A model generated the notes under the pieces. That model saw only the letters and a list, made by a program, of their open reading frames with translations, did no database searches and was not told where the DNA came from. A DNA stretch of 45,236 nucleotides, from the NCBI GenBank assembly GCA_024687845.1, contig JAILEL010000041.1, positions 1 to 45,236 of the forward strand, written 5' to 3'. This document shows positions 1 to 45,101 of this stretch, piece by piece. The DNA comes from Eubacterium sp. (GTDB taxonomy: Bacteria > Bacillota_A > Clostridia > Lachnospirales > Lachnospiraceae). A program made the translations under genes and the position numbers. Positions within the stretch are counted from its first letter, which is position 1; each line of letters begins with the position of its first letter.

Positions 1-120
1 ACGCAGCACTGAATCGTGTTTTTTGAGTTCCTGCTTCGCAGGTATTATGAGATATAATATAAAAAACAAACTGCAAGCAGTTGTTTTTCAATTATATCTC
101 ATAAACCGTGAATAGTAACT
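1..120 (+). repeat. Right half of a dispersed hairpin element (MITE-like), cut by the window edge
   Basis: The segment has the same block order as the copy at 43319-43440. The blocks are ACTGAATCGTG followed by a T-run and GAGT (8-28), the small hairpin CCTGC-TTC-GCAGG (30-42), a long A/T stem, a central CTGC-AA-GCAG (71-80), and the terminal sequence ACCGTGAATAGTAAC. The A/T stem is a perfect 14-bp inverted repeat, TTATGAGATATAAT at 45-58 with its complement at 91-104, plus AAAAACAA (62-69) pairing with TTGTTTTT (81-88). The stem sequence differs from the 43-kb copy but is just as complementary. The left half lies outside the window. The element ends about 13 bases before the -35 box of the GH13 gene promoter. 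Confidence 0.8.
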
Positions 121-32821: not shown

Positions 32822-33098
32822 ATTGTCACTCCTTTTTAGCATTAATCTTGTGTCTCTTTATTCATTACTAATCACAGTAACTTATTAATAATAAACAATT
32901 CAATGCTATTATATCACTTTTTTATATTATTTAAAACATCAAATTTATATATTTTCACCTTAATAGCTAATTTTTTATCGTAAGTTTTGTTTATTATCAC
33001 AATTTTAACTGTTAAGCAGAATCAAATGCGCTCTAATAATCACTAATATAATAATCTGTTTTTGTTTATTTTTGCCAATCCCGCCTAAAGCTCGCACG

Positions 33099-33117
33099 TT
33101 ACTATTCACGGTGAACT
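33099..33117 (+). repeat. Solo end of the dispersed hairpin element
   Basis: TTACTATTCACGGTGAACT followed by AAAAAA matches the element terminus TTACTATTCACGGTTGACT in 17 of 19 positions. Its A-run doubles as the U-tract of the SPFH terminator on the minus strand. Confidence 0.7.
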
Positions 33118-43187: not shown

Positions 43188-43211
43188 TTCAGTCCTTCTT
43201 ATTATATTTTT

Positions 43212-43440
43212 TTCACGATTGACTCAAAAACCACTCTTCAGTCCGCATCGCATAACGCTTATTCTTATGCAAGCATAAATAAGCTTATATGCGATACTCT
43301 ATCGCCTCCTGCGGAGGCACTGAATCGTGTTTTTTGAGTCACCTGCTTCGCAGGTACGATAATAATTATGAATAAATGTTCTTAGACTGCAAGCAGTCAC
43401 AAACAGTTATTCATAATTATTATCAACCGTGAATAGTAAC
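43212..43440 (+). repeat. Full-length dispersed hairpin element (MITE-like)
   Basis: A 229-base non-coding element. In order: left end TTCACGATTGACTCAAAAA (43212-43230); a long imperfect stem (ATCGCATA at 43247-43254 with TATGCGAT at 43288-43295 and inner GCTTAT/ATAAGC); GCCTCC-TGC-GGAGGC (43304-43318); ACTGAATCGTG then a T-run and GAGTC (43319-43340), roughly complementary to the left end at 43221-43242; ACCTGC-TTC-GCAGGT (43341-43355); an 18-bp perfect stem (43358-43375 with 43407-43424) around GACTGC-AA-GCAGTC (43385-43398); right end AACCGTGAATAGTAAC (43425-43440). The ends are inverted repeats. The left end lacks the outermost bases TTACTA. Confidence 0.85.
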
Positions 43441-44993
43441 ATCGTCATATCATCAAATTGTGGTTCAGAGCCGGCAAAGTCCTGAACTGCTTCTTTCACC
43501 TTTTCAACAAGCTCATCATTGGACAAATCCTTGTTAGCATTCAATACATCCAGGAGTCTGTCTAAGCCAAATCTGTCTCCATCCGGACCCTTTGATTCAT
43601 TTACTCCATCTGTATAAAGGAATATCTTGTCTCCTGGCTCAAGTGTAAAATCATATGCTTCATACTGAGCTCCAGGTATAAATCCTATCGGCGGTCCATG
43701 GACAGTTTTTTCGATTACGAAATCTTCGTCATGCTTCAATATAGCCGGATAATCATGTCCTGCATTGCAGGCATCTACATGCCCGGTCTCAAGGTCAATG
43801 ACTGCAAACCATACTGTTACAAACATTCCTTCATTATTCTTTTCAGAAATCATTTTATCTACATAGGAAATGATATCTATAGCAGAACCACCCATTCCCG
43901 CACGGGATTTTATAAGGGTTTTAGAGGTCGCCATAAATAATGCTGCTGCCGCTCCCTTATCAGATACATCAGCTATCAGAATCACCAGATGTGTATCATC
44001 CAGCATATAGAAATCATAGAAATCTCCACCAACCTCTTTCGCAGGCTGCATTGAAGCAGACAGATTATAGCCTTTAATCTTCTGAATGATTTCTTCCTTC
44101 TGAGGCAGCATATCGAGCTGAATCTTAGAAGCAAGCTGCAGGTCCGCACCTATTCTCTCTTTTTCAGCAGCTATAGCAAGATTTTCCTTGATATATTTTC
44201 TGACATCCACATTCATCTGAGCAAATGATTCGGATAATTCTTCAAGCTCATCGCCCGTATGAACTCCTCTCATGACAGCATCTTCATTATCAAGGTTCTC
44301 TATCATATGTCTTGCTTCATTGTTCAGAGTACTGATTGGCTTAATAAGAATTCCATCAAAATATAGATACAGGACTCTTCCAGCACAAACAGTTATTAAC
44401 AGCACACCCACAACAAAGGTAGTAATATTTAATAGAATTGCATAGATTGTTTGTGGAAAAGACAGATCTATATCTATTAATGCAACAGGTTCACCTTCAC
44501 TATCGAAAATAGGATAAAATCCTGCTAGTATTGTCTTTCCCTCGTATTTATACTTGGAAACCTTTTTGACAGGATTCTTCCGAAACGTTAAGTCTCTTGT
44601 CTCCTTGCCATTTTTCATATAGTTTTCAACCTTATTAAGCCAGTCATATGAAGATTCATCATCATCTGACATCCATACATAAACCAGATCATCCTCACGT
44701 GGCACAAATACACAGAAAGTAATAATATCCGTACCCATTCTTGTTGAATCAAGATATGCCAGCACTTCATCATAATATTGGTCTGTCTTACCAGTGGCGA
44801 TATAATTTTCAATCTTATCGCCATCTATAAATTCAGATGCACTCTTCAAATATCTATATATTGAATCTTTATATTCTTTCATTTTATAGCCATAGATACC
44901 ATAGCCAACCATAAATCCAGAATATATCACCACGAGTACTTGAAAAAGTAAAAAACCTTTTATTATTTTTTTTTGAAGTCCCCCTTTATTCAT
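43407..44993 (-). CDS. Membrane-bound SpoIIE/RsbU-type PP2C phosphatase with HAMP domain
   Basis: A 528-residue signalling protein: first membrane segment (about 12-33), extracytoplasmic sensor region (about 35-190), second membrane segment (about 193-215), HAMP linker (about 216-275), helical connector, and a PP2C-type SpoIIE domain (about 300-528). Metal and catalytic motifs are seen: VGGDFYDF, ADVSDKGAAAALFM, CNAGHDYP, YTDGVNES and FDDMTML. It should dephosphorylate a serine/threonine on a partner such as an anti-sigma antagonist; no such partner is encoded here. The ATG at 44993 follows AGGAG; a TTG at 45026 is less likely. The last ten codons and the stop lie inside the hairpin element, so the end LLFTVDNNYE is repeat-derived or shared with it. 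Confidence 0.9.
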   Translation of the reverse strand: MNKGGLQKKIIKGFLLFQVLVVIYSGFMVGYGIYGYKMKEYKDSIYRYLKSASEFIDGDKIENYIATGKTDQYYDEVLAYLDSTRMGTDIITFCVFVPREDDLVYVWMSDDDESSYDWLNKVENYMKNGKETRDLTFRKNPVKKVSKYKYEGKTILAGFYPIFDSEGEPVALIDIDLSFPQTIYAILLNITTFVVGVLLITVCAGRVLYLYFDGILIKPISTLNNEARHMIENLDNEDAVMRGVHTGDELEELSESFAQMNVDVRKYIKENLAIAAEKERIGADLQLASKIQLDMLPQKEEIIQKIKGYNLSASMQPAKEVGGDFYDFYMLDDTHLVILIADVSDKGAAAALFMATSKTLIKSRAGMGGSAIDIISYVDKMISEKNNEGMFVTVWFAVIDLETGHVDACNAGHDYPAILKHDEDFVIEKTVHGPPIGFIPGAQYEAYDFTLEPGDKIFLYTDGVNESKGPDGDRFGLDRLLDVLNANKDLSNDELVEKVKEAVQDFAGSEPQFDDMTMLLFTVDNNYE

Positions 44994-45101
44994 CAAAGCT
45001 CTCCTAAAATGCTCATCATAAGGCAACTATTTACATTCTAACACGTTAATTTGTATAGTGCTACACAATTTTTGTTACATTTCCCACTATTCGTTATTAT
45101 T

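Follow-up and report, generated by a model that had tools for sequence, protein, structure and literature searches.

The window, the whole 45,236-nucleotide stretch of Eubacterium sp. DNA analysed here (contig JAILEL010000041.1), carries two copies of a small transposable element with a genuine, selected and probably strand-specific fold. We consider it likely that both are copies of a non-autonomous, MITE-like transposon of about 180-240 bp with a conserved fold on one strand and one long hairpin, P7, that is apparently exchangeable. A DDE-type transposase would move the element in trans. The folded product of the minus strand, either RNA within a read-through transcript or single-stranded DNA, would be under selection, so that stem letters drift with compensation. 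In addition, recombination in the conserved sequences next to P7 would swap this hairpin as a whole from one copy to another. Compensated drift and block exchange would together produce fixed boxes with replaced yet paired stems.

The original prediction reported fixed blocks common to a copy at 1-120 and another near 43 kb, and these are indeed present. In copy 1 they are ACTGAATCGTG (8-18), CCTGCTTCGCAGG (30-42), CTGCAAGCAG (71-80) and CCGTGAATAGTAAC (106-119), with counterparts in copy 2 at 43319-43329, 43342-43354, 43387-43396 and 43427-43440. A mechanical repeat search recovered the stems of copy 1 (45-65/84-104, 21 nt, 90%) and copy 2 (43358-43380/43402-43424, 23 nt, 96%). Fold z-scores range from -5.2 to -6.9 for the two copies, each on both strands. 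The stretch noticed earlier is the right half (~50%) of an element of ~235 bp, whose other half occupies about 43206-43311 in copy 2 and was first seen complete in a relative, L002. Copy 1 has no left half because the window begins there. Read from L002, the unit consists of a terminal repeat, a P2 stem around a multi-branch core (P3, P4, P5), the P6 hairpin, the variable P7 and a second terminal repeat. R1, a covariance model trained on 12 relatives and no window sequence, finds copy 2 at 43205-43440 on the minus strand (100.4 bits, E 1.9e-21) and copy 1 at 1-119 on the same strand (85 bits, E 7e-18, match truncated at its 3' end); the copies are thus real beyond chance.

Table 1. Parts of the element in the window, with sense referring to the folded strand.
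Feature	Position	Strand	Basis
Copy 1, right half of element only	1..119	-	R1 match and sequence
Copy 1 hairpin P6, CCTGC-TTC-GCAGG (sense CCUGC-GAA-GCAGG)	30..42	-	Sequence; helix 3 of A1
Copy 1 variable hairpin P7, arms 45-58 / 91-104, tip 71-80	45..104	-	Sequence, repeat search, arm-pairing test
Copy 1 terminal inverted repeat, sense 5' end GTTACTATTCACGG	106..119	-	Sequence
Copy 2, complete element, folded strand minus	43206..43440	-	R1 match; row 1 of A1
Copy 2 left terminal inverted repeat, decayed (sense 3' end)	43206..43219	-	Sequence; P1 of A1
Copy 2 P2 stem, arms 43220-43234 / 43327-43341, around P3, P4, P5	43220..43341	-	Sequence; A1
Copy 2 hairpin P4, tip TGCAAGCA	43246..43296	-	Sequence; A1 consensus
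Copy 2 hairpin P5 GCCTCCTGCGGAGGC	43304..43318	-	By eye; helix predicted in A2, absent from A1 consensus
Copy 2 hairpin P6	43342..43354	-	Sequence; A1 consensus
Copy 2 variable hairpin P7, arms 43358-43375 / 43407-43424, tip 43387-43396	43358..43424	-	Sequence, repeat search, arm-pairing test
Copy 2 terminal inverted repeat (sense 5' end)	43427..43440	-	Sequence
Solo terminal repeat relic GTTACTATTCACGGTGAACT	33098..33117		Adjoins terminator-like hairpin (by eye) and end of SPFH/Band 7 gene (Pfam)

Solo terminal repeats in two other regions (L125, L126) likewise adjoin terminator-like hairpins, and four full copies (L044, L053, L058, L062) also come after such hairpins, in each case as judged by eye.

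To describe the fold, 50 elements, bounded by script or at chosen anchors, were drawn from 100 fetched regions and the window. Alignments made from sequence only, one of 38 full-length copies including window copy 2 (A1) and one of 12 shorter copies (A2), were folded with RNAalifold. The covariation that the original prediction had proposed to look for is there: two-sided compensatory changes are found in 45 of the 52 pairs predicted for A1 and in 33 of 54 for A2. With the structure held fixed, 94.1% of A1 cells are paired, versus 77.7% in shuffles and 37-48% when partners are slid; the corresponding values for A2 are 92.5%, 79.4% and 32-46%. The covariation score is 0.450 versus 0.159 for A1 and 0.381 versus 0.142 for A2. 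All six A1 helices contain two-sided changes, among them the closing stem, which joins arms separated by about 200 nt. So do seven of the eight A2 helices, the exception being the invariant four-pair P6. The outer P7 helix is the poorest-paired helix of A1 (87.8%).

An ordinary MITE, with palindromes that are an accident of its terminal repeats and a folded strand free of selection, is a very improbable reading of this pattern. Long stem-loops are described as common in bacterial MITEs in the relevant passages of PMC2229807, but the many two-sided changes in A1, a multi-branch architecture that recurs in genomes sampled from an entire bacterial family, and the strand asymmetry of wobble pairs described below all speak against accidental palindromes. 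These two-sided changes and strand-asymmetric wobble pairs support selection on structure, the part of the earlier interpretation that stands.

The structures counted above were predicted from the same alignments, which biases the counts in their favour, and an alignment-free test of the P7 arms is therefore important. Parsing kept 64 of 102 regions; in the other 38, many of which are fragments, P6, the tip or the right end could not be recognised. Across these 64 hairpins, arms pair with their own partner at a mean of -25.5 kcal/mol, versus -7.7 kcal/mol with the arms of other copies, and in 54 of 64 hairpins no arm from another copy pairs better than the own one. Arms thus fit within a copy and differ between copies, as had been proposed, with the exception of one mis-parsed hairpin (L130) that was left out of the P7 fold counts (n=63). 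The stronger claim that stems are always paired is borne out as strong pairing between own arms, not as perfect pairing: single mismatches (at least one) occur in 26 of 63 folds.

The other half of the earlier interpretation was that copying regenerates the stems. Hairpin-primed repair or quasi-palindrome template switching would rewrite one arm from the other, with no selection needed. P7 is the kind of long local hairpin on which such a process could act (26 pairs on average), and double changes are frequent even among fairly close copies; L053 and L061, for example, differ by five pairs changed on both sides and one wobble change, with none broken. Against this, P1, with its widely separated arms, and P2 also covary, and at least one interior loop is kept in 62 of the 63 P7 folds alongside the single mismatches. 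Furthermore, in 10 of 64 hairpins the best-fitting partner comes from another copy, and wobble pairs are strand-asymmetric, which is unexpected from symmetric DNA copying. We therefore regard regeneration as quite unlikely, a poor fit and superfluous beside selection on structure.

Wobble pairs also bear on which strand folds. P7 contains 49 G.U pairs when read on the window minus strand versus 14 on the other strand. Over all pairs of A1 there are 74 G.T and 25 A.C, and over those of A2 19 and 13, a slight asymmetry; both comparisons count cells, not events. G.U exceeds A.C on the window minus strand, which is therefore likely the strand that folds. On this strand, an internal loop with GA facing GA recurs by eye in both core types (CAUGAG/CGAAUG and CACGAU/AAGAGUG); we take it to resemble tandem sheared G.A pairs. 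The folded-strand caps in A1 are GNA for P6 in 35 of 38 elements and GNA or GNNA for P5 in 32 of 38, and just 2 of the 18 GNNA caps in A1 are of GNRA type. GNRA caps are favoured by RNA, and very stable DNA hairpins typically have GNA and GNNA caps. The folded product could be RNA or single-stranded DNA, and the sequence data here fit both. We speculate, as a rather doubtful possibility, that folded single-stranded DNA and not RNA is what mobilisation recognises, that the hairpins are interchangeable cassettes and that the Clostridiales-1 'RNA', a candidate RNA from the same genus discussed below, is the same kind of thing.

Where the original prediction saw freely replaced stems, the data look partly like an exchange of whole hairpins between elements. 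At orthologous loci, P7 identity is 0.85-0.93 for three close pairs, and five pairs at greater distance give 0.52-0.68. One locus, presumably between trmE- and gidA-like genes, is occupied in three genomes (L057, L085, L129) by elements whose P7 stems are dissimilar, the other two having identities of 0.57 and 0.68 to that of L057. Among 31 elements of the same core type, P7 identity is decoupled from core identity (Mantel rho 0.017, permutation 0.40), as it is among all 38 A1 elements (rho -0.036); controls within the core gave rho values of 0.57 and 0.255. Coupling is weak in the 12 short elements of A2 (rho 0.34, permutation 0.06). The core of L051 is nearest to that of L043 (0.93), with a P7 identity to L043 of 0.44 by alignment columns and 0.57 when the two are aligned pairwise. 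In P7, L051 is close to L061 (0.84), to which its core identity is 0.80. By these similarities, L051 is likely a mosaic. Window copy 2 and L045 show the same trend, with identities of 0.95 for the core and 0.70 for P7. As P7 similarity is uncoupled from the rest of the element, hairpins seem to be exchanged whole, besides compensated drift, and we infer that recombination between elements exchanges P7. Alternatively, P7 may simply reach saturation sooner than the core does.

The original prediction did not see that the element is transposable, with inverted repeats at its termini and 8-bp duplications of the target. The terminal inverted repeats are GTTACTATTCACRG, the ends of the element are GTTAC...GTAAC, and 97.4% of P1 cells are paired in A1 and 95.5% in A2. 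Flanks of 61 elements match at exactly 8 bp (0.424 versus 0.295 expected, 0/5000 permutations), and the match persists in the 45 genus-level elements alone (0.397 versus 0.303, 0/5000) and in the 16 family-level elements alone (0.500 versus 0.287, 0/5000); lengths of 7 and 9 rank next and are far weaker. Not counted in this set are window copy 1 and L069, both of which lack the left end, and rows where the ends matched only loosely. A perfect 8-bp duplication is present in 2 of the 61 elements and 7 of 8 positions match in 3 of 61. Most elements have no visible duplication, so many copies look old. Outside the 61-element test, L056 has a perfect 8-bp duplication by eye. In a genome from the wider family (G060), three copies share 99-100% identity but lie in unrelated surroundings, and at the expected target duplication they match at 8 of 8, 7 of 8 and only 4 of 8 positions; a fourth copy is 76% identical. 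In another genome (G416), L051 and L055 are 96% identical over 237 bp and lie at different loci.

A transposase with matching ends was not found in 16 regions around end repeats (10 genomes), and facing end-repeat pairs 0.9-4 kb apart have no transposase inside, as judged by eye. The IS66, ISL3, IS256 and IS1595 families make 8-bp duplications. In 11 element-bearing genomes, mostly fragmented drafts, IS66 was detected in 2, ISL3 in 1 and IS1595 in 1, and IS256 exceeded the cut-off in 3 (4 at E<=0.001). Such absence is weak evidence because insertion sequences are often missing from draft assemblies. An insertion sequence present in four copies in G404 (L244, L247, L250, L252) was considered as the mobiliser and rejected: it makes clean 8-bp duplications but has different ends (GGTAGTGTCAA). 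It encodes a 506-aa frame that weakly resembles the Transposase_mut family.

The element belongs to certain gut bacteria, and its relatives are spread over the genus and the wider family. An exact 21-mer scan of genome contigs returned two records, 'uncultured Lachnospiraceae bacterium' and 'Eubacterium sp.', and an exact scan of viral contigs returned no matches. BLAST with the L002 element (E<=0.01) found matches in 28 of 61 genomes of that genus, with at least 15 in one genome and the weakest about 20 nt long. At E<=0.001, R1 has matches in 33 of 150 genomes sampled from the family, including G002, and the matches number well over a hundred. Copy counts per genome are lower bounds, with at most 13 candidate stretches scored with BLAST and 17 with R1. 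A strict two-block pattern, which proved too strict, occurred in 1 of 397 family genomes. Reduced forms also occur. Several R1 matches in G098 and G137 (L198-L201, L203-L206) consist of the ~55-nt core alone, dispersed or in tandem, and stand beside a hairpin of a different type. Three regions (L070, L103, L223) retain the terminal repeats and all or part of P7, by internal deletion, and the first two occupy sites orthologous to fuller copies. One further copy (L124) is split by what appears by eye to be the end of a group II intron.

The elements are intergenic, and their placement relative to genes called by a simple purpose-written script bears on a rival reading. On that reading, they would be cis-acting regulatory RNAs or small RNA genes held in place by a host function, with mobility incidental or over. 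The sense strand points the same way as the downstream gene in 14 of 18 window-type loci and in 20 of 25 loci of canonical Clostridiales-1, and elements occupy orthologous sites in several genome pairs. The window-type count used 20 of 30 loci (E<=1e-9), two of which have no downstream gene; among the ten loci outside it, eight have the same orientation, one the opposite and one no downstream gene. The canonical count drew on 26 of 30 loci. Where the upstream gene is co-directional, no more than 10 nt lie between its stop codon and the start of the element in 8 of 11 window-type loci and 12 of 17 canonical Clostridiales-1 loci. A host-held RNA nevertheless seems improbable given the 99-100% identical copies at unrelated sites, the 8-bp target duplications and the 4 of 18 elements oriented against the downstream gene. 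On our preferred reading of a folded transposon, the likely cellular effect, by analogy solely with ERIC, would be that of an mRNA-embedded processing or stability element. In the window, copy 2 overlaps the 3' end of a reading frame for a SpoIIE-domain (PP2C-type) phosphatase (43407-45026). The stop codon lies inside P7, so the element supplies the last codons of this frame.

The nearest known relative is Clostridiales-1 RNA (Rfam RF01699), a candidate RNA of Weinberg et al. 2010 that is tabulated there as a probable RNA and probably not cis-regulatory (PMC2864571). A literature search by name found no study of it later than the 2010 paper. The window has no match to RF01699 at the gathering score (48 bits), and copy 2 has none even at E<=5. 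No known RNA in Rfam matches the window at the gathering cut-off; miRNA-family matches in these searches were set aside as chance matches to long hairpins. RF01699 matches 5 of 14 relatives over the full model at E 3e-7 to 0.006, all below the cut-off of 48 (best 44.1 bits, E 3.1e-7, then 42.1 and 41.5), and none of the other 9. In the reverse direction, using 26 of 30 canonical loci, R1 recovers 13 of the 26 at E<=0.05, a number that rises to 19 at E<=10, the best at 25.4 bits (E 5e-4).

The two share a closing stem of inverted ends and, in sense order, a long variable GCUUGC-tipped hairpin followed by a helix with a CAUGAG...CGAAUG internal loop. They also occur in the same genus, in multiple copies, with similar orientation and at intergenic sites. 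Canonical Clostridiales-1 has a GGAUUGC...GCAAUCC helix, absent by eye from A1 and A2, and one inner hairpin, whereas window-type elements have P6, two inner hairpins and, by eye, ends unlike those of Clostridiales-1. The window element is thus probably a sister family of Clostridiales-1 RNA, one whose members score below the Rfam membership threshold. Clostridiales-1 occurs above the cut-off in 46 of 61 genomes of the same genus. In G452, six canonical copies are 97-99.5% identical over 205 nt with unrelated flanks and, from this identity, look recently mobile; only ambiguous A/T-rich repeats were seen by eye as a target duplication there. A short hairpin, ATGATGTGGTGTC..GACACC, lies at 160-193 in the window, just downstream of copy 1. 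Hairpins of the same kind directly adjoin many canonical Clostridiales-1 copies, for example the six in G452, and seem to belong to the Clostridiales-1 mobile unit.

Like ERIC, NEMIS/Correia and other structured MITEs as characterised in PMC2229807, the window element is short and mostly intergenic, with terminal inverted repeats and target duplication. The same source describes such elements as folding as RNA when co-transcribed, the orientation of ERIC as mattering and the mobiliser of most as not known, all points of likeness. The window element has an 8-bp duplication and GTTAC...GTAAC ends, whereas ERIC, NEMIS and the others have TA-type ends in that account (PMC2229807). Unlike them, it has a multi-branch fold that covaries throughout the family and a hairpin that is apparently exchangeable, and it lives in different bacteria. 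It is known in kind, as a structured MITE and as a candidate RNA, and by comparison with Rfam 15 it is a new family, with the apparently exchangeable hairpin as its unusual feature. For the candidate RNA class Clostridiales-1, this suggests a nature as part of a superfamily of folded mobile repeats. The R1 matches in the sampled family genomes form a natural series in which to ask what makes a mobile element retain so complex a fold, whether RNA or single-stranded DNA is the acting form, and how a transposon could exchange hairpins as modules.
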